This document shows, piece by piece, positions 14,905-42,909 of a stretch of DNA of 64,000 nucleotides. Position numbers and translations under genes: made by a program. A model generated the notes under the pieces. It ran no database searches and had not been told where the DNA came from. It was given only the letters and a program-made list of their open reading frames with translations. Numbering within the stretch: the first letter of the stretch is position 1; each line of letters starts with the position of its first letter. Origin of the DNA: a virus; IMG/VR virus record IMGVR_UViG_3300002161_000764, positions 40,409 through 104,408 of that record; one strand, 5' to 3'.

Positions 14905-16140
14905 CTACGTAGTCAGTTTGATGCCAATGGTGTTGATGATGCGTGGCAGTTCATCAATATACTGCCGCGGCACCCCATCAATTCCATCGTGCATCATAAT
15001 GCCGTGACGGTCAATCTCATTCCAAATTAGGTAGCGCGCCCCTCTCTCCCACTCAAAGTAGTTTGAGAATACGCGTTTTTGGTTCTTGAGCGATGGGTTA
15101 AGTTTCAAGTTTGCTGCACACACCGCCTTCTTTGCACGTGAGTACTGCCTCGAAATAGTTTGAAGCCGAGCGCCAATCTTCTCAAGACGACTTTGACTTA
15201 CATCTCCTGACGCTTGAATGATAAGTTGAGCGGTAACTGAAAAAGAATTGCCTCCTGACATAATTGCTGGTGAAATTCTTGACCCATTTGCAAGGCTCAT
15301 ACATACCTTCTTTACAACAGAAATTCCTTCTTCATTCCACTCAAGCCCGAGAGTGTTTTCACAGAGGTCCTTTCGCCACTTCTGCTTATCGTCGATTAGT
15401 TGTTTAAGGTCTGGGTAAAGCATCTTCACGAGACGTTGCTTAGTACTATAAATTTCACTAATGTGTGACATTAAATATTGCGTATATGCACTATCAATAT
15501 CAATTGATGCACCAAACAATTTTTCACGCAACCAAGATGGCCACGTCTCAATTGCAGCAATTGGCCAAATTGAGGTATCACGCTGCTTCAATTTACCAGC
15601 AGGTTGAAAAACAAAATTTACTTCGTCTTGCTGAAGAAGCCACTTGACAGGCGCAATTAAATCAACACGACCCTCACTATAAAGTTGGTCAAGTATATTT
15701 GACGAGTTGCTTCTGATGATATAGACCTTTGATATAACTCCATCTGGGCGTTCAGCAGGCACAAACTGAAGATCAAGTTCTGTTGTCTGAGCCTCAATAT
15801 TATTTTCTAACTTTTTTGGAATAAGCAGTGATATCTGCTTGTCATCATTTGCAATATTGTAGCCTAGTTGCTGTACGTCAAAAAAATAATCTAGGGCACG
15901 CCTATAGTCATATACCCAATCCCTAAGAGCAACGAGCCGCAGTTTAATTGGATAGAATGCTCTGCACGCAGCGTTGCGCATTGAATGCGAGTGCAGATTT
16001 GCAAGAAAAAGAATTAAGTCTTGCCTATCTTGCTGCCTCTGTCGATGAATTCTACTCTTGTCGTTGTAGAAGCGACTGACGTGAAGAGGATCTGCAGGGC
16101 TGATCACCCGGCTTGCCTTCACCCTGTAGATTGCGCTCAC
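14905..16140 (-). CDS. Putative compact palm-domain polymerase (single-subunit RNAP/family A-like)
   Basis: 411 residues, no annotated family known to me. Three spaced motifs suggest a polymerase palm: A, ASIDIDSAYTQYL (D214/D216); B, VVKKVCMSLANGSR (K277, K278, M281, G286), which aligns without gaps to T7 RNA polymerase KRSVMTLAYGSK; and C, GIMMHDGIDGVP (H384, D385), like T7 IHDSFGTIP or Pol I VHDE. Spacings of about 62 and 100 residues are nearer DNA polymerase I than T7 RNAP. The T7 ribose-selecting Tyr639 position is Asn285 here. The roughly 200-residue N-terminus is basic and helical. It is the last gene of a five-gene minus operon, overlapping the 75-residue gene by four bases. Activity, template and product are unknown. 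Confidence 0.6.
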   Translation of the reverse strand: MSAIYRVKASRVISPADPLHVSRFYNDKSRIHRQRQQDRQDLILFLANLHSHSMRNAACRAFYPIKLRLVALRDWVYDYRRALDYFFDVQQLGYNIANDDKQISLLIPKKLENNIEAQTTELDLQFVPAERPDGVISKVYIIRSNSSNILDQLYSEGRVDLIAPVKWLLQQDEVNFVFQPAGKLKQRDTSIWPIAAIETWPSWLREKLFGASIDIDSAYTQYLMSHISEIYSTKQRLVKMLYPDLKQLIDDKQKWRKDLCENTLGLEWNEEGISVVKKVCMSLANGSRISPAIMSGGNSFSVTAQLIIQASGDVSQSRLEKIGARLQTISRQYSRAKKAVCAANLKLNPSLKNQKRVFSNYFEWERGARYLIWNEIDRHGIMMHDGIDGVPRQYIDELPRIINTIGIKLTT

Positions 16141-16364
16141 ACGCGCCCGGTCTTCAACTTCTTATAAATTGACTTTACGCTATCTGGTCGAACAAGCAGT
16201 TGATAGCGTGGTGCTGAAGGCTGACTATTTTCCGATTTTGCAAATCTATTTTCGTACGTCTTAACGACGTATCCATCTTTCTTAATATCCTTACCTGCCT
16301 CTGATAAGGTAGTAGCGAGACCCAGCGCCGCCCGCCGCATCCTCTTTGCTTGTTTTCCGTTCAT
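16137..16364 (-). CDS. Small basic protein of a recurrent phage type, unknown function
   Basis: 75 residues beginning MNGKQAKRMRRAALGLA and ending RPDSVKSIYKKLKTGRV. The MNGKxAKxxRR start and a C-terminal (N/P)xSxRxxYxxxKK helix recur in small phage proteins of unknown role. It is highly basic, compatible with nucleic-acid binding. AGGAG lies well placed before the ATG, and the ATGA overlap with the polymerase-like gene suggests the two are made together. Confidence 0.65.
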   Translation of the reverse strand: MNGKQAKRMRRAALGLATTLSEAGKDIKKDGYVVKTYENRFAKSENSQPSAPRYQLLVRPDSVKSIYKKLKTGRV

Positions 16365-16385: not shown

Positions 16386-16988
16386 TCACCAGATCCCAGC
16401 GTACTTGGGATTTAAAACAGTATCTGCCCAGTCAGGGATATATCCAAAATTTTGCTTAAAAAATAACACTTCCCAGTTTTTGGATGATGCTGTGCCAAGC
16501 TTAGAGAGCCTAGGTCTTACGATTATAAATCGTATATCCTGCGGCTGCCTTAATCCCTTCACAAGGAGAGGTTCTTTAACACCCATCATTTGAATGATTG
16601 TATCACTTGGGCTGATCTGTTCCAAATGAAACGCAGGTATTGGGAGTTGAATTGAGTGAATGACTGAAGGATGTGGAGTTGGCAGTGCCCTAAGACCCTT
16701 GCTTGATTCACAAAATCTAACGATTGAATTTAAAAATGACTGATACGTAAAGTCATTCACACCGCCTCGCTTAACGTGCGCTTTCACCATATCACGGTCG
16801 GGTGGGAAATAAGTTGTTTTTACATCGCCTCTCTGCTTGGCATTGTACGGCCCAAGGAACTCTGCGGCCTGCACATGCAGGTTGTAGTGGTTTGAAAGAA
16901 CTGGAATAAGGTCTGAAAAGTCTTGAATTTTTCCTTGACGTGAAGCATCAAGCCGGGCATTCCACCTAGGCAGTGTAGTAGTTTCCAT
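16386..16988 (-). CDS. Hypothetical protein of the polymerase-nuclease cassette
   Basis: 200 residues, mixed alpha/beta, with PHPSVIHSIQLPIPAFHLEQ, a GVKEPLLVKGLR strand-turn and a C-terminal aromatic region (FFKQNFGYIPDWADTVLNPK). No motif recognised. It sits between the small basic gene and the PD-(D/E)XK nuclease in the same operon with short gaps on both sides (6 and 21 bp), so a shared process is likely. Confidence 0.65.
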   Translation of the reverse strand: METTTLPRWNARLDASRQGKIQDFSDLIPVLSNHYNLHVQAAEFLGPYNAKQRGDVKTTYFPPDRDMVKAHVKRGGVNDFTYQSFLNSIVRFCESSKGLRALPTPHPSVIHSIQLPIPAFHLEQISPSDTIIQMMGVKEPLLVKGLRQPQDIRFIIVRPRLSKLGTASSKNWEVLFFKQNFGYIPDWADTVLNPKYAGIW

Positions 16989-16994
16989 AATAGT

Positions 16995-17573
16995 TTAAAC
17001 TTTAGAATACCAAAATTCAATAATTGGTAATAGGTCATCAAGATAATAGACGTCAATGCTCTTGCTTATTCCAGCAGCTAAAAGAGTTAGGCGCGGCTTA
17101 ACACCATTCTCTGTAAGTACACGATAATCAGCTCGGACGTCTAAAGTATCCACTGCAACAAAAATAGCAGTTCTATTCCACTTAAAGATAAGCATAGGAG
17201 ACTTATCAATTTTGCAAGCGTCAACTGCTGCTTCATCGAACCATTTAAACACATTCGCAGTATTTGAAACAAGCGATGTGAAATTATCTGGAGTAGAGTA
17301 TGATTTACATTCTATAGAATGTTTAAAATTAAAGCCCTCTTTTCTCTCATTTACTGGAACAACGTCGCCAACAAAGATCTTAAGTGCTTCCTCGCCGAAC
17401 ATTTGACCTATAGTTTCAAAGTTCTTTCCGCCCACACGAGCGCCCGACCCGGGTGTACGGATAAAATTAAGTGGTGCAAGTGCAGCGGTAAGCTTTTTTG
17501 CAACGGTGCCTTCGAAGCCGTTGCCTTTTCCCTTGGAATTAAATCGCTTTTTCTTGTCTTTTGGCTGTTCCAT
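16995..17573 (-). CDS. PD-(D/E)XK nuclease, Holliday-junction-resolvase-like
   Basis: 192 residues. Catalytic layout: E21 in GNGFEGTVAKKL, a conserved RTPGSGARVGG loop, D70 in FVGDVVPV, and E88-x-K90 in HSIECKSY. This is the order of archaeal Hjc-type resolvases and phage PDDEXK nucleases. A Lys/Arg-rich N-terminus (KDKKKRFNSKGKG) would help DNA binding. The start lies inside the 3' end of the upstream GIY-YIG gene (35-bp overlap). Resolvase versus general endonuclease cannot be settled by sequence. Confidence 0.75.
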   Translation of the reverse strand: MEQPKDKKKRFNSKGKGNGFEGTVAKKLTAALAPLNFIRTPGSGARVGGKNFETIGQMFGEEALKIFVGDVVPVNERKEGFNFKHSIECKSYSTPDNFTSLVSNTANVFKWFDEAAVDACKIDKSPMLIFKWNRTAIFVAVDTLDVRADYRVLTENGVKPRLTLLAAGISKSIDVYYLDDLLPIIEFWYSKV

Positions 17574-18267
17574 TTTTTACCATCTTTGCTAATTGTTTGG
17601 ATGTTATTCCAAGTTGACGAAGTGCTGCACACCCAGATTTATATGTGATACCATTCACGGTATACTGCACTGCATTTACTGGGGTTCTACCTACATTCAT
17701 TTTCCCGACCTCAGCCATTGCAGTGCGCCGCTTGGGATCTTCAAGCATAATTTTTTGTGCTGCCGCCATCTTTGCACGAGTTTCTGCAGAGCGTGTTATT
17801 CCTTTAAGCCCATCAGAGGTCTTCCTCTTCTCTTCGGCGGTTCGCGGAATACCCAGCTTGGCATTCCTCATCTTCTTCTTTACTTCTGGGTTTGCTAATG
17901 CAACCTTGACCCCGGCACTGATCTTTTCTATGATCTCGCTCCTACGCAGCATAGTATCTTCGCCCCATCCTCCCTCCGCACGCGCTATGTTAAAGAGTAT
18001 TATCCCCTCAGATCTAAGGCGATCTATGTGCTCGTTTTCAATTGCAAAGTAGAATGCCTTGTCATAAGGACCAAGCAATTCGGTGATCTCATAGCTAAAC
18101 GCTTCAGCCCCATACTTCTGCCAAGCATGCTGCAGATGCCTGTTGAAATGTTTATTGTTTAGTAACAATCCAACGTGCACGCCCCACCGCTTGTCTATGT
18201 TCTTGGCTGAGCCCAAGTAGACCTTTTGATTAGCTGAACATGTAATAGTGTAGATGCCTCCGCGCAT
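17539..18267 (-). CDS. GIY-YIG homing endonuclease (Seg-like)
   Basis: 242 residues. The nuclease domain is clear: GIYTITC (4-10), KVYLGSAKNIDKRWGVH with Y17, G19, R27 and H31, and catalytic Glu E77 in FAIENEHIDRL. Middle residues carry NUMOD3-like KRKTSDGLKGITRSAETRAK and the C-terminus a NUMOD-type helix-turn-helix (ITYKSGCAALRQLGITSKQL). A late-type promoter ends only four bases before its ATG, so the transcript would be nearly leaderless. It heads the operon that ends with the polymerase-like gene and could have carried that cassette with it. Confidence 0.88.
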   Translation of the reverse strand: MRGGIYTITCSANQKVYLGSAKNIDKRWGVHVGLLLNNKHFNRHLQHAWQKYGAEAFSYEITELLGPYDKAFYFAIENEHIDRLRSEGIILFNIARAEGGWGEDTMLRRSEIIEKISAGVKVALANPEVKKKMRNAKLGIPRTAEEKRKTSDGLKGITRSAETRAKMAAAQKIMLEDPKRRTAMAEVGKMNVGRTPVNAVQYTVNGITYKSGCAALRQLGITSKQLAKMVKNGTAKRQEKAI

Positions 18268-19363: not shown

Positions 19364-21103
19364 TTATTGAACTACAACTTCGGAAAATCCATTTATTTTT
19401 CTAACAAGAAGGCTGTTGTCAAGTCTTCCGGCAATTGCTGGGTGATGACTAATTACAAAGATGCTCATTTCTTCATCTCGTGCCTTCTCTTTCAGAAGCC
19501 GGACAATTGAATCGATTCCGTTTTGGTCCAGGGCGCCATCTAACTCATCAATTAACAGAACATTAGTACGAGCGTGTAGGTGGTGCAGTACGTCTCTAAA
19601 TGCAAGCATTAGCGCAGTATTCACCCGCTTCTTTTCACCAGCGCTCAGATTTCCAAAGTCTAGTTCTCTCCCAAACTCAGAAACAGTACAACTCATATCT
19701 GCATCAAACTTTACTAGGTGCGGCAGACCAAGAGTACGAGTGTAGAGATTTACTCTGGAGTTTAGGAATGGAATTGTTTGATTGATAATTTTCCTGCGCA
19801 GGAAAGAATTTTTATCTGTAAGCAGTTTTACAAGAAAGTTTTGGTGGTCAAGCCTTTTACGAAGGACATCAACTTTAGAAAAGTCAATCGTATCTACCGC
19901 CTCATTTAAAAGAGTATCTCGAGCCTCGACGTGCGGGTTTTCAGCCAACTTTAACTCTTCAATTTTGTTTCGAAGAGATGCAGCATTTTCTCGTGCTGTC
20001 AGCAGGTCAGCAAGGTCAGGGTGTTTGATTTCACTTTCGAGAGTGGCAAGTCGGTCCTTCTTTTGCTTTAACTCTACATCGAGAGTTGTTTCCTTCTCTT
20101 CAGTTTCAAGAAGTTTTGCACCTTTTTCTTCTAGCAATTGACGAAGGGCGCTGAGACGCTCTGGCGCACTTGCATATGTCTGCGAGCAGTATGGACACCT
20201 TTGGTCTACCAAGTGGCTCTCTTCACCTATTAACTTTTCTACTTCTTTTGAAAGGAACTGCTTGTCCTTCTTCAATGGCACTAGACGCGCAGAAAGGTAT
20301 GCGCTCTCTTCCTTCAGTTTATCCTTCTCATCATGTAGAGACTTCTCAGAGACAAAATCGATTGTTGCAAGCGCCTCAAGCGTTGCCTCGATATTCGTAA
20401 TATTTTCTGCTCTAGACGTTTCCCACCGACTAACGCGGTCTTCTGCTTCCTTCAGGTGCTTCTTGTGAAGGTCAACTGCAACCTGTTGCTGAGCACAAAC
20501 GGCTTCTGCAATCTTAATATCACTTTCTGTTTGCCTGATTTTCTCCTTTAGCATCTGCGCCTTCTCAGAAAGCATTGTGATGTTGAATAACTCCTCAATC
20601 TGGTTGCGCTGCTGGGCAATTGGTAACTGCAAGAAGGCAGGAGAATTTCCAGAGAAAATTACTGTCTTTGTAAAAAGGTCGTATGAAATTCCGATGATGC
20701 TCTCAATTAACTCGTCGCACTCTGTCACACCCTTGCCTGGAGTAATGTCCTCACCATCGCGCTTGATTTCAATCTTGTACTCTTCACCTCGCGCTCGATA
20801 AATCTCATATTCAATGCCACCTTTTTCAAAAATAAGACGAACTTCCATCAGCGTATTCTTAGTGGCATTGGTACTATTGATTAGACGCTGTAGGCTAATG
20901 CTATCAAATGGCTTATTGAAGATTGCGTAGCAAAGAGCATTAATGATTGATGACTTGCCGCTGCCATTGCTTCCACCATTGTCTAGGTTTTGTCCTTCAA
21001 TCGATACCGTCTTCTGCTCAAAGAGGTCAAATACCTGTGTTTGGTTACCGTATGACAGAAAGTTTCTGACTTCGAGCGTCTTGAAGATAAGAGGGATTGA
21101 CAT
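19364..21103 (-). CDS. 46: Recombination endonuclease subunit gp46 (Rad50/SbcC-like)
   Basis: 579 residues (T4: 560). Walker A GGSNGSGKSS at 43-52; long coiled coil with zinc-hook CPYC at 303-306; ABC signature LSAGEKKR at 486-493; Walker B VLLIDE at 515-520; switch histidine in ISHH at 551-554. With gp47 it forms the MR complex that resects double-strand ends for recombination-dependent replication and helps host DNA breakdown. The start overlaps the gp47 stop (TAATG), so the subunits are coupled. Confidence 0.97.
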   Translation of the reverse strand: MSIPLIFKTLEVRNFLSYGNQTQVFDLFEQKTVSIEGQNLDNGGSNGSGKSSIINALCYAIFNKPFDSISLQRLINSTNATKNTLMEVRLIFEKGGIEYEIYRARGEEYKIEIKRDGEDITPGKGVTECDELIESIIGISYDLFTKTVIFSGNSPAFLQLPIAQQRNQIEELFNITMLSEKAQMLKEKIRQTESDIKIAEAVCAQQQVAVDLHKKHLKEAEDRVSRWETSRAENITNIEATLEALATIDFVSEKSLHDEKDKLKEESAYLSARLVPLKKDKQFLSKEVEKLIGEESHLVDQRCPYCSQTYASAPERLSALRQLLEEKGAKLLETEEKETTLDVELKQKKDRLATLESEIKHPDLADLLTARENAASLRNKIEELKLAENPHVEARDTLLNEAVDTIDFSKVDVLRKRLDHQNFLVKLLTDKNSFLRRKIINQTIPFLNSRVNLYTRTLGLPHLVKFDADMSCTVSEFGRELDFGNLSAGEKKRVNTALMLAFRDVLHHLHARTNVLLIDELDGALDQNGIDSIVRLLKEKARDEEMSIFVISHHPAIAGRLDNSLLVRKINGFSEVVVQ

Positions 21104-22143
21104 TACTTCAACTCCTCATATAGGTCAACTAGCATCGAGGGGTCAATTGTCTGCGATGGCTGGACGCCCTCTGTTATCAACTTGCGCACCGTATTGTCAA
21201 GTGATGTTAGGTCAATTTCACCTTCCATTTCTAATCCTTCTTCTAGTTGCTCTTTCCTTGCCATAAGGTCCTCTTCAACTGAAAATTCTCTTAGCCCCAG
21301 TGTCTTTATCATTTCTTCCTTAAGCGCCTGCACGTCGCTGTAGCCAATATCAACATCCAACATACAGCGTACGCGACTGTTTTCCGGAAAATATGCTTCA
21401 CCATCTAACACGCGGCTCAACTTCGTCTTGAAGAAAAGTGGTGCTTTTTCCCAGTTATGAAACCAAATATCTTCATTTTCAACGTCAAACACCGCGCATC
21501 CTCTTTCACTGTCACCAGCATCCCCAAAATTAGTTGGAAATGTATTGCCAATGTAGATTATGTTTTTGAATGTTTGTCTCTTATGAAAGTGCCCACTGAA
21601 GATAAACTGCGGTCCAGAAAAATCCTCAGGATCGGGTCCGTGCTCCATCCGCCTATCAGCACCAGTGACAATAAAGTTTCTAAATTCAAAGTGACCAATC
21701 ACATAACGACTTGAATTGATGTCAGGCACCTGTATTGGATATTCTTCCCTAAAGAGATAGGGAGCCGCATAGAATTTTTTAGTAAGTTTCTTTGGCTCAC
21801 TTACAAGGTGAAAGTTGTTTAGGTCATTGAAGATATCAGTCGAAAATATCTCTCTGTTTGAGCGATGGTAGAGGTCGTGATTGCCGATAATAAAAATCAC
21901 AGGTAAGCCGATAGCATTTAACCGCCTTGCACCCTCTTGAGAAAATTTCAGGGTCTTGACATTTATCTGATTTCTATTTTCAAACCAATCACCTAAAAAT
22001 GCAATATGTGAAGGTTTTTCCTGCTTTGCTACTTCGATAAGCCAATCGATATACTGCAGATTATCAAGATTGTGCTGCTCAGAGTTATTGCGACACCCCC
22101 AGTGGATGTCAGTAAACATTAGAAGTTTTTTGATTTCCTGCAT
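21103..22143 (-). CDS. 47: Recombination endonuclease subunit gp47 (Mre11/SbcD-like)
   Basis: 346 residues (T4: 339). All metallophosphoesterase motifs are present: FTDIHWG (D12, H14), FLGDWFENR (D52), IIGNHDLYHR (N88, H89), VIGHFEFR (H151) and SGHFHKRQ (H185, H187). It is the nuclease partner of gp46. An EDxHD-type homing endonuclease gene separates it from gp55; in T4 the same interval holds other small genes. Confidence 0.97.
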   Translation of the reverse strand: MQEIKKLLMFTDIHWGCRNNSEQHNLDNLQYIDWLIEVAKQEKPSHIAFLGDWFENRNQINVKTLKFSQEGARRLNAIGLPVIFIIGNHDLYHRSNREIFSTDIFNDLNNFHLVSEPKKLTKKFYAAPYLFREEYPIQVPDINSSRYVIGHFEFRNFIVTGADRRMEHGPDPEDFSGPQFIFSGHFHKRQTFKNIIYIGNTFPTNFGDAGDSERGCAVFDVENEDIWFHNWEKAPLFFKTKLSRVLDGEAYFPENSRVRCMLDVDIGYSDVQALKEEMIKTLGLREFSVEEDLMARKEQLEEGLEMEGEIDLTSLDNTVRKLITEGVQPSQTIDPSMLVDLYEELK

Positions 22144-23304
22144 TTATTTTTCCACGTAAAAAATTTCACCACAATCCCATACAGGGCTTTTCAACCCGTG
22201 CTTAAATTGTGGATGAATTTTATATTCCTTTGGTTCATCAAACCCAATTATGTTTAGATTAAACTGCTGTGGAAGTGGCCAAGCACCACTAACCTTTAAA
22301 CACTTACCGTCAAGTAAAAGTTGTTCATCTTTTGAAATATTAATGTAGTTTTCAAACAGCCTATCCTTTACTTCATTTGGCATTATATCAATTTCATCTT
22401 CAAACAGCGATATAAGCGTAATTGACTTTCTTAGGCAGGATATTAATTTTTCTTGGTGATAGCCATTATAGGCACCTGCTGCTTCACTATGCCAGTATAA
22501 GCCGTTAATTTCAATTGCAAGGTTATGTTCAGGCAGATAGAAATCCAGTTCCCTCGGCTTTATAATTTTTCTATCATTTTCAACAAAATTGATGTTATTT
22601 TCTAACAACCACGTTTTAACGCGTATGTGTTGAGTGCTAATCTGGTGTGGAAAACATTTCTTGCACCTTGGTATTTGAGAGCACCAAACACGTCGTGAAA
22701 AAATATGACCACAAATATGCTGTAGTTTTACTTCTTGAGAACTAGTAGGATTTTCAACAAGTGATAGATTTTCTTTTTCAAGCAAGAAAGACAATCTTCT
22801 GGTGAATGCCTGAGACTTAATTTCCTGGGATTGATCACGCAATTTGCCTAGATTAAAGGCGTTCTCTACACCATATTTTTTAAGCATTACTTTTTTAAAA
22901 TAGGAACCTCCAAAATAGTGCTCTGGTGTGGAGCCATATTTCTGAAGAACCGTTGCTGCTGCTTTATGTTTTGTTACTTCTAATTTTTGAGGATAGTCTA
23001 TTCCATATTTTTTAATGTTAGATTGCTTTCTAGCATACTGAGTTGTCTCAGCGTTAGCGCTGCATCTTGCAGAACAAAACTTTCTAAAAGTGCCTCTTGC
23101 GAATATTGTAGATTGACCACAAATAGCACACCCCTCAGGTTGCCCGTTTTGATCTATCCAAGCAACCTCAGCAGGTGTTCTTCCATTTAGTAACTTTTTG
23201 ATTTGCGGAGTTACTAACTTTTTCCAATTGGAATTTATTGAACCATCCTCTTTTATAATTGCTGATTTTTTAAGAATATCAGTTATCACTGCTGTTGCCA
23301 CCAC
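22144..23304 (-). CDS. EDxHD (Vsr-like) homing endonuclease with zinc fingers
   Basis: 386 residues. An N-terminal zinc finger (CAICGQ ... FCSARCSAN), repeated KKYG units (IKKYGIDYPQK, LQKYGSTPEHYF, LKKYGVENAF) as in NUMOD-type DNA binding, a second zinc finger (CGHIFSRR ... CKKCF), then the nuclease core: RELDFYLPEHNLAIEINGLY followed by WHSE and SLFEDE. This resembles I-Bth0305I-like enzymes. No ATG exists before the conserved part; the frame opens right after a TGA with GTG GTG, inside the last codons of gp55 (26-bp overlap), so a GTG start is likely. Codons are more AT-rich than in gp46/47, consistent with arrival by transfer. Confidence 0.85.
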   Translation of the reverse strand: MVATAVITDILKKSAIIKEDGSINSNWKKLVTPQIKKLLNGRTPAEVAWIDQNGQPEGCAICGQSTIFARGTFRKFCSARCSANAETTQYARKQSNIKKYGIDYPQKLEVTKHKAAATVLQKYGSTPEHYFGGSYFKKVMLKKYGVENAFNLGKLRDQSQEIKSQAFTRRLSFLLEKENLSLVENPTSSQEVKLQHICGHIFSRRVWCSQIPRCKKCFPHQISTQHIRVKTWLLENNINFVENDRKIIKPRELDFYLPEHNLAIEINGLYWHSEAAGAYNGYHQEKLISCLRKSITLISLFEDEIDIMPNEVKDRLFENYINISKDEQLLLDGKCLKVSGAWPLPQQFNLNIIGFDEPKEYKIHPQFKHGLKSPVWDCGEIFYVEK

Positions 23305-23737
23305 TCATAAAAGCTGTTTCATCAGAAGTTTTTCCAGATGAACGCTCTTGAAATGAGAAGGAAGGATTAACGCCAGCATCCACAAGAAGTTCATCGCGTA
23401 TGTCACGTTGCTTCTTTTCATCTGCAAGGTATTGAAGAAAACTTCGATAAACAGCAGTAGTGTAGAAAGCGAATGGATTGTCTGACTTCTCAGGATCAAA
23501 CTTGTGCCAGTTTGCACACAGATTAACAACGGCAAATGACACCATATCTTCTCTAAATGAATATCCGCCAAAGCTTGCGGAATAGGAATACCGCTCGGCA
23601 ATCATGTGGAGATATTTTGCGAGAATAGGTGACAACTTGCCCTTTTCTTTTGCCTCTTTAATGGATTCAAGCAATTGAGCATTAGTGACATAATGTCCCT
23701 TCGTAGTAGTAGATCTTGGTTTCTTGTAGGTAGGCAT
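23279..23737 (-). CDS. 55: Late-transcription sigma factor gp55
   Basis: 152 residues (T4: 185). The core block EDMVSFAVVNLCANWHKFDP with NPFAFYTTAVYRSFLQYL is the sigma region 2-like part of the T4 gp55 family, which directs host RNA polymerase to TATAAATA late promoters. Many matching octamers occur in this window. Location beside gp47/gp46 follows T4. The 3' end is overlapped by the homing endonuclease start. Confidence 0.93.
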   Translation of the reverse strand: MPTYKKPRSTTTKGHYVTNAQLLESIKEAKEKGKLSPILAKYLHMIAERYSYSASFGGYSFREDMVSFAVVNLCANWHKFDPEKSDNPFAFYTTAVYRSFLQYLADEKKQRDIRDELLVDAGVNPSFSFQERSSGKTSDETAFMSGGNSSDN

Positions 23738-23850: not shown

Positions 23851-23873
23851 CCTAAAGTCCCATGGAGATAAGT

Positions 23874-24557
23874 ATGGAATTCTTGTCAGAAGAAGAAAAG
23901 GCAGAGAAAATTGGTTATCAAGACAAGCGAGTTGTTGTCATGGTTGGTCGTTTTCAGCCTCCAACGCGTGGGCACTACAAGGTTATTGACGCGATGAAGT
24001 CATTCATCAGGTCAAACCCAGACCTTGACCTTGATAGGATGCCAGTAGTTGTCATTGTAGCAGGAAGCAAGTCTGATTCAGATAAGAAAAGAAATCCACT
24101 CAGTGGCGATGACCGTAAGAAATTCATGGAAAGTTCTGGAAAAGCAAATGGGGTAACTTTTCTGATTGCACCCAATGCATTTGCTGCCTTCACAAAGGTA
24201 AGAGAAGAAGGAATGGAGCCCATCGCAGTTGCTTGTGGTGAGGACCGTGAAAAGGACTATCTAAAGATTCTAGATAAGCACTTCAGGGATGAGGATGATG
24301 AGCCAATTGAACATCATGTAATCTCGCTGGACCGCGACTTTGATACTGAAAAAGATGATGGTGAAGACTATTTTAATATGGTCATTGACATGATAAACAA
24401 TGGCGATGAAATAGATGATAACCAAATAAGCGGATCATTAGCACGTCATGCAGTAAAGAATGATCAGTTAGATGCTTTTGCATACATTGTTGGGCTAGAC
24501 GCAAAGAAGAAGTTGGCAGAAAAACTATTTGACAAAGTGAAGGAGGCTATTGAATGA
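23874..24557 (+). CDS. HIGH-type nucleotidyltransferase (NMNAT/cytidylyltransferase fold)
   Basis: 227 residues from the second ATG (GGAG six bases before it; the first ATG at 23862 has none). The nucleotidyltransferase loop is VGRFQPPTRGHYKVI (22-36) and the second family motif ISGSLAR at 185-191, matching ISxTxxR. The first His of the HxGH motif is Thr31, while H34 is kept. The family joins nucleotides to phosphorylated substrates (NMN, CTP-linked). It leads a structural operon and overlaps gp48 by ATGA, an odd place for an enzyme. Substrate unknown. Confidence 0.8.
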   Translation: MEFLSEEEKAEKIGYQDKRVVVMVGRFQPPTRGHYKVIDAMKSFIRSNPDLDLDRMPVVVIVAGSKSDSDKKRNPLSGDDRKKFMESSGKANGVTFLIAPNAFAAFTKVREEGMEPIAVACGEDREKDYLKILDKHFRDEDDEPIEHHVISLDRDFDTEKDDGEDYFNMVIDMINNGDEIDDNQISGSLARHAVKNDQLDAFAYIVGLDAKKKLAEKLFDKVKEAIE

Positions 24558-33987: not shown

Positions 33988-36900
33988 ATGGCACAACAAC
34001 CTGATTACGTTCTACCTTTCAACAATCTGATTCAGTATGTTCCCAAGAACCTGAGGAACAGCGTCGTAACGGGATTGTTGGATAATCTGTTCAACCGGTT
34101 CATGACTAGAGATGAATCTGTTCCACTATACGGGTATATTGGAAAGAAGCCCAGTGCTGAGGAAGATAAATCTCCAAAAATTACCCAACTTACAGTAGAG
34201 CGTGATATCAATGCTATTACGCCAGTTCTCAACTTTAAGGTTGGCAGTGAGCATATTCCATTTACATTCCAAGACATTCTGAAAAAAGCAGAGCGACTTG
34301 GAATTGATGCAAATTCACAAAACTGGCTGTACAGCCAGGGCAATAACTTTAAGCCACCTGTAGACTTTGACAAGTTTGTAAATTTCTACAAGTACTACTG
34401 GATAGGAAAGGCAATTGATGCTATTCCAGAAATGGAATGGAATCCTGAACTACTTCCAGAATACTATGTCATTAAAAAGCCAGCACTTACAGATTTAGTA
34501 AAACTAAATGTGCGTGTATCGTCTGGACCACTTGATTCATATGTACTAACTGGCTCAGGATTCTTAGACCAGTCATTTACCGTACAGTTTCTTGACGCAT
34601 ATAACTTTACAATTACTCCTTCTGCAGCGCTACAGGGACCAGGAGGTTTATATTCTCCCATTCCTGCTTCCTACAATCTGCCTATACTGCCAACCGGTAT
34701 TGTTAATCCTGCTGATGATGAGAGACCATTTTCCTATCAGGTCACTGGTCCTCAAGGCACCTTTACCCTACTTGAATTTAAAATTACACGTGAGCCAACT
34801 TTTGATAGTTTTGGCACACATGATGGCTGGACAAGTTATGTTGCAGCAGACACCATAGCAATCGATACTACATTTCTCACTGATGCCTATTCACTAAATT
34901 TTTCAGGCTCACTTGGAATAAAGCCAAAAATAAGTGGAGTTCAAGCACTAGATGTCTTTCAAACAATAGACGGAGTTCAACTTCGTGAAGGTGATAGAGT
35001 TTTAATTCAGGCACCAGCGCCCATAAGCGGAATTTATATTGTTTCAAAGCAAGTGTGGACGCGTGCCCCTGACTTTGATACTGATACCTGGTCAATTGGC
35101 GCAAGAACATTTACTGAACTAGGTACTCTATATGGCGGAAAAGTTTGGGAATCATTGGGTGCGCCGAGTGCGTGGGGTTGGATTGACACTGGGCTAACTG
35201 AAAGTTTGACCAATGATTGGCAGGAAGGCAACCTTTGGCTAAAGGGAAGTGAAGTTGATGCCCTTGGAATTCCAAGATCAAATATAATTCAAGCAACACG
35301 CCCAATTATTGAATATTACGCAGATGTCCAATTAAATTCTCGCGTTGTTGATGGTGTTGCACAAGACAGTGAATTACTAGGAAGCAACTACAAGCAAGAA
35401 AAAAGTGAGTTTAATCAACTTCCACTGTTTGACCTTTTCACATATGATAATCACCATTCAGGTTTAGTCAGTTCAATTTTCTATTATGAAGAAGACCCAA
35501 CAGCAGAAGTAGATGTGGCACTACAGAGAAGAATAAGACGAAGCACCAACGAAAGTGCTGACTTTATATTCAATCATGGCTGTGTAGATAATGACCAACG
35601 AATTTTATTTTTCAAACAAGATAACCTTCTAAAAACTATTTGGTTAGCAGGTTATAACTCCCCAAGCACAGTTGATGTCACATTTAATGGCAGTGGTGAT
35701 GGTGCCATCACCACTGTTACACCAAGTGAATTTACACAGCAGCAAATTTGGACTTTGACAGCGACTGGACCAACAACGTTTGATATATCTGGCTCAAAGA
35801 TGGTTGAACTACCAGTGCCATTCAATCAGGTGGTGGTTGGAATTGCATATGATAATGGAGAAATTTCATTTACCATAAATGCTGGAATTACACCATTTTC
35901 GGCTGGTGATACTTTCATTATTAGAATTGCAAATCTTGAGCGTCCTCGCTATGTTTTCAGAAATGAAGATAGCGTAGTAAATGACTTATTTGGTGGATAC
36001 GCTGGTGATATTAATGGGATTGGTGCCTGGCAGTCATCAAGAACATTTATTAACAACCCATACAATGAATCTCGCGCTGAAATTGCTGAAGGATCAATTT
36101 ACTCTCACTTCCGAAGTATCCTTGGAAATCAAGTTGAGGGGCGACCAACAGATTATGCTTTTGGTGGAAATATAAAACTATGGAGTGAGCAGCACACTCT
36201 TCTAGCATCTCTATTAATGCAGAAGGACCTTACACCTGTTTCTGTGATTGACCTTGCCCAGCGCCTATATGATAATGCACTGAATGCTGTCAGAGATATC
36301 TACATGCAAAAGATTGTTGAATATTTTTCAACAAATGAAACTGTTACTAGTGATGGTACGCCTGCAGGAACAGCAAAAGTAGAATCGCTTCTTGAGTATG
36401 TCTTACAACTTCGTTCGCTTGATCATCAAGTAAGAACAGTAATGTTTGACACAACGGCTGGTGTTTTAGGATTTCCAATTACGCTGCCTTCACTAGGAAT
36501 TCTAGAGCCAGTTGTTCCAACATACATGTTTGATCCTGTTCTTGGAAGCACGCTGTTTATTCATCATGATGGACACGCCACGGTACCATTTGTGAATGAT
36601 GAAACATTTAAACAGCAGATTTTTGGTGCATATGCTGGTAAAAATATTCTTAGGAGTGATGGTACAGAAACACCTGCCGTAGGTTCATTCTCTGCAACCC
36701 CACCTCCCGTTCCTTACAAAGGTGAATTTTGGCTACCACCCACAGGTGAAGTTTATTCATTTGCCGTAGATTTTGATACTGAAGCCACACCTGATGCTTC
36801 CGTTGCAGGAACAGTTTGGTTTAAGAGAAGCAGTAGCCAATTGTATATTAGCAATGGCATTACATGGGATTTACAGCCAACGCACATAACATATTGGACC

Positions 36901-39900
36901 CAAGTTGATCTTGCAGCAACATTAAATGAGATGCTGTTGTTAGTAGAACAGCGTCTCTATGGTGATATAAACCAAAATCAACGAAGATACGATTTTTCTG
37001 CAATTGTGACAAATCAATCATTTCAAGAACAACTACGTCGCGAGTTATTCACATTTGCTGCTGTAAATGGTTTAGATCCACTTGGTACAAACTATGATGC
37101 TACTGACCCATTTACTTGGAATTATTCTCAATCAATTGCATTTGCGCCCGTAACAACTCCTACAGTTCCAGCACGTTGGTACAATGCCATGATGGCTCAC
37201 CAACAGACATTTGTAGGGATTATTCCAACTGAGCGCCCAAATCTAGAACCTTGGAAACTTTTTGGTTTTTCTACTTTTAGCGCATGGTGGTCATCACTGA
37301 CACCGCTACAGCAAGTAGCATACACACCTTTTGCCACACCTGATGATTTACTAGATGGTACATTTATAAATGGTGGCTCTGTTCGTGCTGTTGAAACTAA
37401 TACATCTGCATCTACCACATTATTTGGTCTGACAACTATCGATGATGTGGCATTGTCAAGTGGTGATGTTGTTCTACTAACTTCTGAGGTGCTACCACAA
37501 AATAATGGTGCCTGGATTGTTTCACCCGGACCTTGGGCTAGGACTGCCGCCCCATTGGCGTTTAAGACGTTCTTTAATGTTGAGCAGGGCAACTCACAAG
37601 CAGGTACAGTTTGGGCGCTGACAGGTACCGTTGCAGCCGTTGGTACAGATCCAGTCAATATTGCTCAGGTACGGGCATGGAGTACCGAAATGTGGGTAGA
37701 TATTTTGGCTATTTACCCAACTCTAAGGCTAAGCGTAAATCCATGGACAGATGCCTTGCTACCACCATATATTAAGCAATGGTTTATTGAGCCAACAATT
37801 GCACCAGCAACTCCTGGTGTAACAAATCAAATTGCATCTTTTGCACTAACAAATTCTATTCCTCCTGGAGTTGCTGCTCCTTATCAGTTTGGTGAAGGAA
37901 GCCCAGTGGAAGAAGTATGGTCACGTTCAATTGACTATGGTTATTCTAAAGCAAAAGCGCTATTTAGATTTGACCCACTCGCGTTCCTGGGTTTCTGCTG
38001 GGGCTTTAATTGGGTAGAAGTTGATGGCATCCTCTACGATGGATATGACCTAAACATGCCACGCCACCAGTACTTCAAGTTGCACGGTGAGCCTCTGAAG
38101 AGTATTGATAGGACAACGGCATTTAACTTTACTTCGGTAACAGGAACTTCTGCAGTTGATCTTACCATTCAATATGATGCATATGACATAAACAGGCGTC
38201 AGAACTTCAGCGTGAGAACAGCAGATGGCACAATTATTGGATACGTACAAGAAGGGCTTTCTAACATCTTCTCTGCTTCTGGCATAACTATGCTTTCATC
38301 CAGTTTCTTTATTGAAGATAAAGGCTATCCATTTAAGATGGGTGATAAGGTAAGAGTAACTGCAAATGCCGACGGAACAAATCTTCAGGTGGTATTTACT
38401 CCTGCAATCTATCATCAAATTTACGGTTTTGGTCAAATTTTTACAAACTCTCTAAGAGAAATTTCCACTGACACAACCACCAGTTATGCAATAAATGCAT
38501 TTAGAGAATGGGATGTAAACATGGGTCACCGGGCTGGTGGCTTAATAGCAACTGATGACCTAAAGATTTTTACTGAAACAAGTACTCTTAGCCCAGCGTC
38601 TTATTCTTTGTTGTTTAAAAAGAATGACGGCATGAAAAGCATATGGTTACAGGGCTTAAGAATTACGGTACAGCAATATGGAACCGTTGCAATTCAAAAT
38701 GGTTTCCAGATGAACTACCCAGCAGGTGATGGTAGTGATTGGTCATTTAGAATAGAAGGGTATAATCCAAGATTTTTAGACATCACATACTATACATTCT
38801 CACCTACATCTGCTAGACAGACATTCTATGCTCTTGACCAGTCTGCAACGAATTTGGCTTGGACGCAACCTCTTGAGAAGAATGCTACTGTTACGACACA
38901 ACTACCACAGACAATAACTGGCATACAGAATGTTCTTGACTTCCTATTTGGGTATGCACAATATACTGAAGACCAAGGCTGGGAATTTACGTATATTGAT
39001 GGAACAAATATAGATGCTGAAACTGGAAGAAATAGAGACTGGCAACTTGAATTCGAAAAATTTGTTGATAGAGTGTATAGAGGAATAGACCCAGGACAGG
39101 GTGTTATTGTCAATCCATTTATTGATCAAGTACAAGTTAAACAGTCTTCTGGGCTGCTTGGAACATTTGGGAATGAGGTGTTGTTTGATATCTACAGCCA
39201 TGCTGCCGTATTTGATATTAACGGAAGTAAGTTAAGTAAGAATGACGTATTTGTTTCTAGAACAAATCAAAAATCACACATCGATGCAGTATCCCCAATG
39301 TTTTCAATACATGCGTTGATTGATGAATTTGAGCATCTGTTTGTTTTTGAAAACTATGTTGATCCCTCAGAAAGCAATGGGGTGCTATATGACCCATTTT
39401 CTGGTGCTCGTACAGTAACATATAAGTTTAATGGTAGAAAACAAATCGGCGGCACCCTCAGACCTGAGTTTGGTGGTTACTATCTAGTTGGAAATGAAGT
39501 TAAGCAGAACCTTCAGGCAAGTACAGATAACCTTGCTGCGCTATATGATGCAAATGAAGTTTTTGAAAACACAAAAACAACTAAGAATGCGCTTGCTCTT
39601 TTAGGCTTCAACACAAAAGACTACTTTACCAGTCTTGATATTACTGACCGTTCACAGTTTAATTTCTGGAGAGGGCTGATACAGTCGAAGGGAACCAATA
39701 TGTCCATCGACGCGTATCTGAACAACAACCGCTTCAAAGATGCAAAACTTGACGAATATTGGGCTTATAAGATTGCTGAATACGGTGATGCGCGTCAGAA
39801 GACCTTCCCTGAACTTCGTGTTCAGGTGCAGGACTGCCTGCAGCAGTTCACTCAACTCCAGTTTGATGCCGCGGTTGAACTTCCCAACTTTACCCAGATT

Positions 39901-42900
39901 ACACGCTTTGACGAACACCGCTGGTTCACAATTGATGACCTAAATCAAGACACCTTCTTTAAGGCAGAACCAGTTGGTAGTTTCTCCAAAACGGTTACTA
40001 TGAATGAGATAGTTCAACTACCATTCATTGCAGATGCCCTAATCATTTCTGGCTCTGTCACACAGCTAAATGCAGCTTCTTTACTTGCGACTGCTAATGG
40101 AACGATAACAATTACCGGTTATGGAGCAGCAACACCACGCTATAATCCAATAAAATTGTTTAACTATGAAGACGATGAACTAGTTGAAGAAATTCCACTA
40201 TGGCACCCTGCTACTGGAAAGCACTCACCTGTTGCACTAGAATCAGTTAATATTATTAGTTCTGAAAATCCTGCAAAGTACAACTATTCAACACTGCTAA
40301 TTAATAATCCTGCATACGATGCACTTCGTGCTTGGGGAGATAAAGAGGTAGGAAGAATTTGGTTTAACACAAAAAATTTGTTCTATGTCCCTTATTATGA
40401 TTCATTTGTTTTCCCAAATAGAGCAGAAAGACTAAGCCGCTGGGGAGCACTTGCCGATTATGCAACTATTGATGTTTATGAGTGGGTAAAATCTGCCGTG
40501 CCACCATCTGAGTACGATGCTCTTGCACGAATTGACGCCGGCAATGCAGATATTGATGACACTGTAAAAGCATCTGGGCAAGTTGCGCTTGAGGAACTTT
40601 ATGCCCGTGATAGAATTTATAAGATTGCACCTGTCGCTTGGTCATTTTCACCTGTTGCAACTGATGTTGATTGGGGTGATAGACCACCTATGAAGTACAG
40701 CGGTGACATTACAAACTCTGTTGGATTAGTTGTAAACGGTGAATTCATATTCTTAGACACCGGCTCATTTGCGCAACTGGGTATCATTTCTGGAGATAGA
40801 GTTGGCACTTGGCAACATGGAGTTTCTCCTGGACCATTATCAGAGGGTGTTATAAATGATACCTTCCAGCAACTACTTCTGGACAGTTCATCTGGAACAT
40901 CACTTGCACCAATACCAACTACTGTTATTTCAAGCGTGGGTCCTGATGATTTTACTTGTTCAGTTTCAGTTGAGGCTGTTTCTTACCCAGATACCCGCTT
41001 TATTGGAGAGATAGCAGTTACCCAAGAACAAGATGTAAATCAGTTAACTGATATTGATGGCAATCTAATTGCGCTTTGGGACCACAACTTCTATATTCGC
41101 GTGACAGAGGTATCAACTGGCGAATATTCTCGTTTTCTTGCGTATACAATTAGAATTGCTGGTTCAGGGTCTGGTACCGCTCTTGACCCATTCGTACAGG
41201 ACCCATTAGTAACTTCAGTGACCAATGGTTCAATTTATGACTATACTATAACTGAACTTGGTTTAAGATTTAGGGTGGTGTCATCTACAACTGGTATAGT
41301 TGATGGTGATTTTGCGGTAAGAGCAATAGGGCAGGCATATGGAACAAACACCCTACTTATTAAAGACGCTGTCACTGTAAATTGGATTATTGCAGCAGAA
41401 GATGGTCAATATACAAATGATACCACAGATACACTGTACGCATATAACAATGAGATTGGCTGGCGTGTATGGAATGTTCCAACACAGGCTGAATTGAACA
41501 GTGATGGTAAACAACCAAGCAGCAGTTGGAAACCATATGTTGGAGAGGCAAAGGAGTTCTATCCTACTTTTGATGACCTGCAGGAAGCAGTTGAGTACAC
41601 AGAAAATCCGCTCACATTAAACGATGGGACAGTAGTACCAAGATACCTAAGTGATTGGACAGAGTGGGAAAAACTACAGGATATAAAGGTCTCAAGAATT
41701 TCAGCAACAACTGCTGATATGCTATTCAATATTTCTGAGTTTGATTTTTCACTCACCAAGTTTGATGTTAGCCGCACCGCAGTCTATGTAAATGGAATTG
41801 CTCAGTTGAAAGCAGCATATGAAATATCTGGTGGAGAACTTACCGTTCTGAATGTGCAGCAAGGGTTCACTGTAGATATAATTATGCGCAAGTATAATCC
41901 ACCTGCATCTGAACTGGGATTCAATCCAGATGTCGAAGATGACCTGTCATTCAGGAGACAATACAAGAAGGACTATGAATATGTTGCACAGGAAGTGAGA
42001 GATAAGGATGGAAACCTAAACACCATCTACTATTACTTCTGGGTAAAAAATAAGTCAACAGTTGCAACTGGAAAGAAAATGTCTGTACAGGCCATAACAG
42101 ACAATTTAAGAACCGGTCCTGTAAACTTCCTTACGTTCCAGAATATTCTTCCAGCACAGACGGTTCCAACAATTCTGCCTTGGAGATATGATGCTATCAC
42201 AATTTCTGGTCTGTCTTATGTTGTTACTAAGGATGATACCTTCAAACTCAGATTTACCAGAAACTTTACTCTTAGAGACGACCCAAATGAACTTGACTTG
42301 AAGAATACTCACACAGAATGGGGGCTAATTAGACCTGCCCAGAAGTCAAAGATCCCTGAGAAATTATGGTTGAAGTTAGTTGATAGCATGGCAGGACTAG
42401 ATGCTGCTTTAAATCCAGTTCCTTCTTTGCGTCGAGTTCTTTATGATGAAAGAAATGGAACAACTACAAGGTATGGCTTTGGTAATGAGCAAACTCTTGC
42501 TCCTTCTAATTTGCTCAGGTCATCAGTTTCTTACACTATAGTAAATACTAAACAAACTGAAGAAACAATGACAGAAATAGTGCCTGACTATATTGAATTT
42601 ATTGATGCGGTGGTTGATATTGCATCAACAGATGAATATGATAACCCGATTGAAAAGCAGGAAGCAAAGAAAACAAAGGCACTTCAGGTTGAGCAAGTAT
42701 TCTTCTCAACATCTGCCCAGATAAGATCAACAATGACTGATATTTGGACATCAGCATCTGTTGCCCAAATTAATGAAATTTTCTTTGCCGCGCTTGAGGA
42801 CATACTGGCAAGTAACTTTGAACTTACCGATATTTTCAAGACATCAAGGCTTTCCATTTATTCAATTCAAGAAAAACGCGCCGGAAACGTAGTACCAACA

Positions 42901-42909
42901 TATGAATAA
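33988..42909 (+). CDS. Giant baseplate wedge/virion structural protein (gp7 position)
   Basis: 2973 residues, nearly three times T4 gp7 (1032). It follows gp6 and starts with VLPFNNLIQYVPKNLRNSVV; a signature block, NSQNWLYSQGNNFKPPVDFD and KFVNFYKYYWIGKAI, follows at about 105-145. It contains two copies of a fibre-type module (GVQLREGDRVLIQ at about 34.93-35.23 kb and DDVALSSGDVVLLT at about 37.42-37.68 kb) and one of a PF...GD...I beta unit at 35.79-35.94 kb. No enzymatic motif. It is likely a peripheral wedge or arm scaffold; the gp7 label rests on order only. Confidence 0.7.
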   Translation: MAQQPDYVLPFNNLIQYVPKNLRNSVVTGLLDNLFNRFMTRDESVPLYGYIGKKPSAEEDKSPKITQLTVERDINAITPVLNFKVGSEHIPFTFQDILKKAERLGIDANSQNWLYSQGNNFKPPVDFDKFVNFYKYYWIGKAIDAIPEMEWNPELLPEYYVIKKPALTDLVKLNVRVSSGPLDSYVLTGSGFLDQSFTVQFLDAYNFTITPSAALQGPGGLYSPIPASYNLPILPTGIVNPADDERPFSYQVTGPQGTFTLLEFKITREPTFDSFGTHDGWTSYVAADTIAIDTTFLTDAYSLNFSGSLGIKPKISGVQALDVFQTIDGVQLREGDRVLIQAPAPISGIYIVSKQVWTRAPDFDTDTWSIGARTFTELGTLYGGKVWESLGAPSAWGWIDTGLTESLTNDWQEGNLWLKGSEVDALGIPRSNIIQATRPIIEYYADVQLNSRVVDGVAQDSELLGSNYKQEKSEFNQLPLFDLFTYDNHHSGLVSSIFYYEEDPTAEVDVALQRRIRRSTNESADFIFNHGCVDNDQRILFFKQDNLLKTIWLAGYNSPSTVDVTFNGSGDGAITTVTPSEFTQQQIWTLTATGPTTFDISGSKMVELPVPFNQVVVGIAYDNGEISFTINAGITPFSAGDTFIIRIANLERPRYVFRNEDSVVNDLFGGYAGDINGIGAWQSSRTFINNPYNESRAEIAEGSIYSHFRSILGNQVEGRPTDYAFGGNIKLWSEQHTLLASLLMQKDLTPVSVIDLAQRLYDNALNAVRDIYMQKIVEYFSTNETVTSDGTPAGTAKVESLLEYVLQLRSLDHQVRTVMFDTTAGVLGFPITLPSLGILEPVVPTYMFDPVLGSTLFIHHDGHATVPFVNDETFKQQIFGAYAGKNILRSDGTETPAVGSFSATPPPVPYKGEFWLPPTGEVYSFAVDFDTEATPDASVAGTVWFKRSSSQLYISNGITWDLQPTHITYWTQVDLAATLNEMLLLVEQRLYGDINQNQRRYDFSAIVTNQSFQEQLRRELFTFAAVNGLDPLGTNYDATDPFTWNYSQSIAFAPVTTPTVPARWYNAMMAHQQTFVGIIPTERPNLEPWKLFGFSTFSAWWSSLTPLQQVAYTPFATPDDLLDGTFINGGSVRAVETNTSASTTLFGLTTIDDVALSSGDVVLLTSEVLPQNNGAWIVSPGPWARTAAPLAFKTFFNVEQGNSQAGTVWALTGTVAAVGTDPVNIAQVRAWSTEMWVDILAIYPTLRLSVNPWTDALLPPYIKQWFIEPTIAPATPGVTNQIASFALTNSIPPGVAAPYQFGEGSPVEEVWSRSIDYGYSKAKALFRFDPLAFLGFCWGFNWVEVDGILYDGYDLNMPRHQYFKLHGEPLKSIDRTTAFNFTSVTGTSAVDLTIQYDAYDINRRQNFSVRTADGTIIGYVQEGLSNIFSASGITMLSSSFFIEDKGYPFKMGDKVRVTANADGTNLQVVFTPAIYHQIYGFGQIFTNSLREISTDTTTSYAINAFREWDVNMGHRAGGLIATDDLKIFTETSTLSPASYSLLFKKNDGMKSIWLQGLRITVQQYGTVAIQNGFQMNYPAGDGSDWSFRIEGYNPRFLDITYYTFSPTSARQTFYALDQSATNLAWTQPLEKNATVTTQLPQTITGIQNVLDFLFGYAQYTEDQGWEFTYIDGTNIDAETGRNRDWQLEFEKFVDRVYRGIDPGQGVIVNPFIDQVQVKQSSGLLGTFGNEVLFDIYSHAAVFDINGSKLSKNDVFVSRTNQKSHIDAVSPMFSIHALIDEFEHLFVFENYVDPSESNGVLYDPFSGARTVTYKFNGRKQIGGTLRPEFGGYYLVGNEVKQNLQASTDNLAALYDANEVFENTKTTKNALALLGFNTKDYFTSLDITDRSQFNFWRGLIQSKGTNMSIDAYLNNNRFKDAKLDEYWAYKIAEYGDARQKTFPELRVQVQDCLQQFTQLQFDAAVELPNFTQITRFDEHRWFTIDDLNQDTFFKAEPVGSFSKTVTMNEIVQLPFIADALIISGSVTQLNAASLLATANGTITITGYGAATPRYNPIKLFNYEDDELVEEIPLWHPATGKHSPVALESVNIISSENPAKYNYSTLLINNPAYDALRAWGDKEVGRIWFNTKNLFYVPYYDSFVFPNRAERLSRWGALADYATIDVYEWVKSAVPPSEYDALARIDAGNADIDDTVKASGQVALEELYARDRIYKIAPVAWSFSPVATDVDWGDRPPMKYSGDITNSVGLVVNGEFIFLDTGSFAQLGIISGDRVGTWQHGVSPGPLSEGVINDTFQQLLLDSSSGTSLAPIPTTVISSVGPDDFTCSVSVEAVSYPDTRFIGEIAVTQEQDVNQLTDIDGNLIALWDHNFYIRVTEVSTGEYSRFLAYTIRIAGSGSGTALDPFVQDPLVTSVTNGSIYDYTITELGLRFRVVSSTTGIVDGDFAVRAIGQAYGTNTLLIKDAVTVNWIIAAEDGQYTNDTTDTLYAYNNEIGWRVWNVPTQAELNSDGKQPSSSWKPYVGEAKEFYPTFDDLQEAVEYTENPLTLNDGTVVPRYLSDWTEWEKLQDIKVSRISATTADMLFNISEFDFSLTKFDVSRTAVYVNGIAQLKAAYEISGGELTVLNVQQGFTVDIIMRKYNPPASELGFNPDVEDDLSFRRQYKKDYEYVAQEVRDKDGNLNTIYYYFWVKNKSTVATGKKMSVQAITDNLRTGPVNFLTFQNILPAQTVPTILPWRYDAITISGLSYVVTKDDTFKLRFTRNFTLRDDPNELDLKNTHTEWGLIRPAQKSKIPEKLWLKLVDSMAGLDAALNPVPSLRRVLYDERNGTTTRYGFGNEQTLAPSNLLRSSVSYTIVNTKQTEETMTEIVPDYIEFIDAVVDIASTDEYDNPIEKQEAKKTKALQVEQVFFSTSAQIRSTMTDIWTSASVAQINEIFFAALEDILASNFELTDIFKTSRLSIYSIQEKRAGNVVPTYE

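Follow-up and report, generated by a model that had tools for sequence, protein, structure and literature searches.

A putative mini-polymerase of family A fold encoded beside the recombination genes of large T4-like phages

The window analysed here, 64,000 bases in length, covers bases 40,409-104,408 of a 104,408-base IMG/VR record, which is a fragment. On its minus strand, at positions 14905-16140, lies an open reading frame for a protein of 411 amino acids, here called the mini-polymerase. The gene begins with a GTG start codon, which overlaps the stop of an upstream gene for 75 amino acids by four bases (16137-16140). An initial annotation of this DNA regarded the phage as T4-like, and PHROGs families bear this out with matches to a major head protein, a portal, a head protease, a late sigma factor and the SbcC/SbcD-like gp46/gp47 pair, as does a match to PF12322 (T4 baseplate) in the window. 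The gp55-like late sigma factor is encoded at 23279-23737 on the minus strand (phrog_234, E 7.1e-32). For the major head protein, the nearest matches come from the jumbo phages Xanthomonas XacN1 (50.7%) and Stenotrophomonas RAS14/CM1 (47.2%).

The mini-polymerase gene stands at the end of a gp47-gp46-resolvase operon, with its neighbours upstream on the same (minus) strand. Directly upstream is the gene for the 75-residue protein (16137-16364; weak match to phrog_15472, E 1.5e-5), whose family is found upstream in 30 of the 55 loci with enough DNA to tell, followed by a gene for a 200-residue protein of unknown family (16386-16988), a frequent neighbour present in 40 of 51 such loci. Next come a PDDEXK endonuclease, a RusA-like resolvase (16995-17573; PF24608, E 3.6e-23; phrog_244; 34 of 47 such loci), and the two subunits of the recombination nuclease, the gp46/SbcC-like one at 19364-21103 (phrog_77, E 1.1e-88; 42 of 45 loci) and the gp47/SbcD-like one at 21103-22143 (phrog_100, E 1.2e-57; 36 of 43 loci), both again counted over loci with enough DNA. 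Downstream of the mini-polymerase a baseplate gene lies on the opposite strand in 56 of the 62 loci. These neighbourhood counts are not dereplicated and include several near-identical pairs, e.g. L010/L021 and L088/L089.

The 200-residue neighbour gave no Pfam match over the cut-off, no NCBIfam match and no match among PDB sequences, nor does it match the mini-polymerase profile. Residues H111, S112, Q114, W172, E173 and D189 are invariant in 35 sequences of this protein, which is a possible partner of the mini-polymerase. In 16 loci a family with similarity to nucleoside 2-deoxyribosyltransferases (PF15891) occurs, standing immediately ahead of the mini-polymerase gene in 15; the match comes from one tested member (L046:7510-8001, E 7e-33). 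Several further features were seen in these regions. A GIY-YIG endonuclease (17539-18267; PF01541, E 6.2e-9) lies amid the recombination-operon genes of the window. At L003:625-3909 gp46 appears, by eye, to be interrupted at its nucleotide-binding motif by an intein-like insert with an endonuclease-type reading frame. The reading frame at 22144-23304 of the window, with a weak match to DUF7487, and that at L001:7653-9185, which is flanked by the mini-polymerase gene and the baseplate gene, belong to one small family found in three loci, possibly a mobile endonuclease. Elsewhere in the window, 23862-24557 encodes a cytidylyltransferase-like protein (PF01467, E 3.9e-5, over the cut-off), and two very long reading frames of 2973 and 1500 amino acids lie back to back on the plus strand (33988-42909 and 42902-47404).

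Iterated scans of IMG/VR delivered 3, 17, 36, 49 and 62 loci in successive rounds, on contigs of up to 368 kb. The family comprises 62 homologous proteins, 55 of them distinct, from 60 IMG/VR loci, one contig of a metagenome-assembled genome (MAG) and the window. The latter contig, 14 kb in length and binned to an Omnitrophota MAG, was the only locus found in a scan of genome contigs; it is taken as a phage contig and not as a host gene. Residue counts given below cover 61 loci and the window; L040 gave no called protein, and rows not counted at a position are fragments gapped there. L006, a copy of L005, was left out of alignments and counts, and L001-L004 were left out as duplicates. A 42-row alignment was also made without the fragments L020, L038 and L040, without L021, L032, L033, L036 and L054 (identical or almost identical to rows that were retained) and without 13 loci added later; its 41 relatives share 34-61% identity with the window protein. 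The gene is under purifying selection, with dN/dS values of 0.09-0.12 in the four of ten pairs in which dS was unsaturated, three of these four sharing members; the other six pairs were saturated.

Searched by tblastn with four members of the family, 50,697 phage records gave nothing at E 10, and the 42-row profile found no match in any of eight phages (XacN1, RAS14, the partial genome of Vibrio 2.275, Phosso, PA5oct, T4, 2L372D and T7). It did match two other records, both of which hold members of that profile. The carriers of the family are a group of large T4-like phages known from environmental DNA only, and a literature search found no paper on the family. In Pfam the window protein has no match at E 1, and over 30 members only matches of single members appeared (best E 0.055), PF00476 not being among them. 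PHROGs gave weak matches for the window protein (E 0.17 and 0.35) and, over 42 members, matches of one or two members each (best E 0.004) to families of which 10 of 11 carry no description. No NCBIfam match was found at E 0.1. Among PDB sequences there was none for the window protein or for the 42-row profile, and the single match of a 15-row profile, SidJ (E 0.49), is at chance level.

The initial annotation had recognised in the protein three motifs of the kind found in T7-type RNA polymerases (RNAPs) and Pol I, and these are present at the residues it named: ASIDIDSAYTQYL with D214 and D216, KKVCMSLANGSR with K277, K278, M281 and N285, and MMHDGIDGV with H384-D385. Its ungapped alignment of motif B with T7 RNA polymerase is likewise real, with six of 12 residues identical (K, M, L, A, G and S), and hhalign reached the same register unaided, placing K277 on K631. 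Motif A, D214-I-D/E-S-A-Y219-T-Q221, is encoded at 15478-15501, motif B, K277-x3-M281-x3-N285-G286-S287, at 15280-15312 in the register K631/M635/Y639 of T7 RNAP, and motif C, H384-D385-G-x-D388-G389, at 14974-14991, all on the minus strand. D214 is kept in 60 of 60 homologous proteins, K277, M281, N285 and G286 each in 61 of 61, and H384 and D385 each in 62 of 62; since these residues are invariant in the relatives, the motif B match is more than chance. R256 is also kept (61/61), and G182, L184 and R187 (60/60 each) form a hairpin G182-x-L184-x-x-R187 (15580-15597, minus strand) between the long strands 173-181 and 187-192, which would correspond by its place to the T/DX2GR motif of Pol A.

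The expectation that the key residues be kept in homologues held for D214, K277 and D385 but failed for D216, where 36 of 60 proteins have Glu, 22 Asp and two Asn. As position 216 is not conserved, it is not the catalytic residue; the motif A aspartate is D214, and the D216A mutant proposed earlier would be the wrong loss-of-function control. At position 219, five residues after D214 (D+5), Tyr is found in 52 and Phe in eight proteins. Position 273, four residues before the motif B lysine (K-4), is Ile in 37 and Arg in eight of 62.

AlphaFold2, supplied with a 15-sequence alignment, predicted the structure with a pLDDT of 87.9 and a pTM of 0.80. In the model D214 ends strand 212-215 ahead of helix 218-230, K277 lies on helix 270-284, with the rest of motif B on or just after it, and H384-D385 occupy the turn of a beta hairpin (strands 381-383 and 386-388). 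This order of elements is the layout of the Pol I palm and fingers. No canonical thumb is seen in the predicted model. A Foldseek search of the PDB returned family A DNA polymerases as its top three matches (two chains of Pol theta and the apicoplast DNA polymerase, from two entries), the best with E 0.076 and probability 0.92 and none below E 0.001. In VIA the best 50 rows are all family A DNA polymerases, aligned over 233-251 residues with Z 11.8-9.8 and rmsd 4.2-5.2, the aligned part of the model being residues from about 130 to 411. Pol theta leads with Z 11.8 (242 residues, rmsd 4.5), followed by KlenTaq (10.9), T7 DNA polymerase (10.7) and Klenow (9.9). These scores exceed the background stated for the tool, which is 7-8 for the best row and 4-5 at rank 50 when there is no clear match, though mostly helical models can reach 13-14.

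In a library of viral structures three proteins matched at E 0.001 or less: the uncharacterised phage proteins A0A6J5NAK1 (5.5e-9) and A0A6J5NHK2 (1e-5), and a protein of Pyramimonas orientalis virus whose name refers to an origin-binding domain (2.7e-4). All three may be relatives. Among the best 50 rows of this library 12 are named as DNA polymerase, including five labelled family A or Pol I, with E 0.03-3.6. A reverse transcriptase, represented by weak Foldseek rows only (8ubc, 9wy8), was considered and dropped; the motif spacing of reverse transcriptases does not fit the mini-polymerase. The earlier proposal of a second, minimal polymerase of the Pol I/T7 palm class is thus supported by a confidently predicted fold and by invariant motifs, while sequence profiles do not back it.

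The profile tests were made with hhalign, in which the family gave probabilities of 0.1 against Pol A, 0.6 against single-subunit RNAPs and 0.07 against divPolA2, a divergent phage Pol A discussed below. As the first control, Pol A against RNAP, reached only 1.6, nulls of 60 column-shuffled templates and a working control were added. In the comparison with 10 phage Pol A proteins, 39 of the 60 shuffles score at least as high as the family, and only motif C is in register (H384-D385 on H653-D654); against divPolA2 24 of 60 shuffles are as good, only D385 falling on the motif C aspartate, and with N-terminal profiles 38 of 60. None of 60 shuffles reached the control of divPolA2 against Pol A, whose alignment brings all three motifs into register; for Pol A against RNAP the number was likewise zero, and there motifs B and C line up. 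Nothing of use came from global mode. Because the comparison with Pol A stays at chance while the control passes, the family has diverged further than divPolA2 has, and what places it in family A is the predicted fold together with the invariant residues.

The best profile signal came from seven T7-type RNAPs, whose score was reached by three of 60 shuffles and whose motif B is in exact register (K277/M281/N285 on K631/M635/Y639). This signal speaks for a rival explanation that appears rather improbable, in which the protein would be a site-directed primer-maker or RNA polymerase, its N-terminal domain recognising DNA and its palm starting chains de novo like the T7-type RNAPs. In the same alignment, however, motifs A and C do not line up, and T7 RNAP ranks only 26th in the PDB Foldseek search (E 7.9). 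The best 50 VIA rows include no single-subunit RNAP, though one may rank further down. The N-terminal domain, residues 1-136 (15733-16140, minus strand), is a small alpha/beta domain with the element order helix-strand-helix-helix-strand-turn-strand, and when refolded alone with a 40-row alignment it was predicted with a pLDDT of 85.5. Foldseek found nothing significant for it (best E 0.4). VIA returned weak rows with Z up to 3.8, many of which we take to be winged-helix DNA binders. Element order and weak rows together offer a lead that the domain may be a winged helix, and such matches would suit a polymerase directed to DNA sites. No promoter-recognition domain was recognised, which counts against the RNA polymerase explanation.

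The predicted active site bears on the substrate. In the T7-type RNAPs D+5 is Gly in all seven proteins (G542) and the motif B Tyr (Y639) is also invariant. In the phage Pol A set D+5 is Glu in at least nine of ten proteins (E480), R518, K522 and G531 are invariant and Tyr is the majority residue at 530. The Pol A form of motif B is Arg-x3-Lys-x7-Tyr-Gly. Compared with it the mini-polymerase keeps K277 and G286 but neither the Tyr, replaced by N285 in 61 of 61, nor the Arg at 273, the K-4 Arg being invariant in both the Pol A and the RNAP sets and not conserved in this family. As judged from the motif, D+5 would be the equivalent of the sugar-gate position: E615G of Taq is termed a 'steric gate mutation' in the conversion of a DNA to an RNA polymerase, and for family B polymerases a Tyr has been proposed as steric gate, both as described in PMC4215692. 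A bulky Tyr or Phe at D+5 would therefore favour dNTPs, and its presence in place of the invariant Gly of the RNAPs argues against the specialised RNA polymerase suggested in the initial annotation.

By the same motif alignment N285 would sit at the position of Tyr766 of Klenow. Klenow Y766S is described in PMC3121766 as having a more open site, as bypassing lesions and as being less faithful, so that fidelity of the mini-polymerase may be low. An unlikely rival explanation builds on this and sees the protein as a translesion or end-joining polymerase like Pol theta, with an open active site tolerating mismatches or lesions. Besides N285, the absence of an exonuclease, the Pol theta entries at the top of the structural matches and the position of the gene with gp46/47 agree with it. 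Pol theta is, however, only about 1-2 Z units ahead of the other family A rows, and the equivalence of N285 and Y766 is one of motif only.

According to a further rival, the protein would be derived from a polymerase without polymerising itself, acting for instance as a DNA-binding recombination mediator or as a regulator of the family B polymerase; the unconserved K-4 Arg, the missing motif B Tyr, the variable D216 and the lack of a visible thumb would be accounted for. An inactive enzyme should have lost some of its catalytic residues, whereas D214, K277 and H384-D385 do not vary in 60-62 proteins, 41 of them aligned relatives with 34-61% identity to the window protein, which makes this explanation quite improbable.

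The phages were further searched for other polymerases and primases, in 22 records consisting of the window's own and 21 on contigs of at least 87 kb among 50 loci (L005-L054), L010 and L021 being near copies. A family B polymerase (PF00136) is encoded in 18 of the 22 and a T4 gp61-type primase in 19, while PF00476 occurs in none; neither of the two former proteins nor PF00476 was found in the window's own 104-kb fragment. The mini-polymerase gene is therefore an addition in those records, neither their replicase nor a stand-in primase. A replacement replicase was considered and dropped because 18 of the 22 records encode a family B polymerase, and the primase role considered in the initial annotation is not needed, given the gp61-type enzyme in 19. 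The RNA polymerase explanation is weakened by the same primase and by the gp55-like sigma factor of the window.

Among known enzymes, the family A DNA polymerases (Klenow, KlenTaq, T7 gp5 and Pol theta) share with the mini-polymerase the predicted palm and fingers, the aspartates of motifs A and C, the motif B Lys and the HD of motif C. The mini-polymerase differs from them in having no exonuclease, no canonical thumb visible in the model, no motif B Tyr, no conserved K-4 Arg and no PF00476 match. The T7-type RNAPs resemble it in the ungapped motif B shared with T7 gp1 and in the HD of motif C. They differ from it at D+5 and at the motif B Tyr, the mini-polymerase having less than half their length and spacings of 63 residues between motifs A and B and 108 between B and C, against 94 and 181 in T7 RNAP.

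The idea of such a mini-polymerase is anticipated in print by divPolA2, which is described together with divPolA1 in PMC11348598 (preprint PMC11188092), the only two publications found under the name 'divPolA2'. As characterised there, divPolA2 is a protein of about 430 amino acids from Rheinheimera barbaviruses, Vibrio phages and others (representative AUR84708), extra to PolB, with a palm that holds the catalytic residues, no exonuclease, no thumb and an N-terminal globular domain of unknown kind; a role as a repair DNA polymerase or as an RNAP was proposed, and the RNAP role left open there lends something to the RNAP rival. The mini-polymerase would work like divPolA2. The likeness extends to size and to presence beside a PolB and, on the predicted model, would take in the palm residues, the lack of an exonuclease and a globular N-terminal domain where a thumb would be. 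A sequence relation between the two is not detectable (best BLASTP E 4.7, hhalign probability 0.07), and scanning viral contigs with the divPolA2 representative turned up no relative. Across seven divPolA2 proteins the K-4 Arg is invariant and D+5 is Glu in four, His in two and Trp in one, whereas the mini-polymerases have an unconserved Arg and Tyr or Phe. By the account in PMC11348598 divPolA2 occurs in variable neighbourhoods, unlike the mini-polymerase with its conserved recombination operon. divPolA1, reported in the same paper from Flavobacterium phage immuto and others and set against the mini-polymerase here by its description, is likewise an extra divergent PolA with a truncated thumb and no exonuclease activity expected, but it keeps an inactivated exonuclease domain.

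On balance, we regard the mini-polymerase as a putative auxiliary DNA polymerase of family A fold, without exonuclease and thumb, for recombination or repair synthesis. The protein is probably active, and most likely a DNA-making enzyme tied to recombination or repair; it is gene order alone that suggests the recombination role. In this auxiliary polymerase a family A palm and fingers would be joined to a small N-terminal domain, which may be a winged helix and, standing in for the thumb, would grip the DNA. D214 and D385 would hold two Mg2+ ions, K277 on the fingers helix would bind the triphosphate of the dNTP, and Y219 would act as the steric gate that excludes rNTPs. The enzyme would extend 3' ends arising from the gp46/47 nuclease and from strand invasion, in gap filling or in short repair tracts, with bulk replication left to the family B polymerase.

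The textbook example of recombination-dependent replication, that of the T4-like phages, relies on a single family B polymerase. A bolder and doubtful extension of the auxiliary polymerase proposal would make the family a third, independently diverged thumb-less lineage of family A, whose winged helix-like domain reads a DNA site or structure so that an enzyme of 411 residues can start or resume synthesis, a clade of jumbo T4-like phages thereby running recombination with a low-fidelity polymerase of its own next to gp43. A literature search joining winged helix, family A DNA polymerase, palm and bacteriophage found nothing.

Similar oddities are already known from a few other phages, while the sequence family of the mini-polymerase itself is unnamed by Pfam, NCBIfam and PDB searches. 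If the auxiliary polymerase proposal is true, a conserved second polymerase encoded with gp46/47 would mean that a dedicated enzyme has taken over part of recombination-dependent synthesis. The small set of diverged Pol A variants described so far would then gain a very small member lacking both a canonical thumb and an exonuclease, one that would help to define the minimal needs of such a catalyst.
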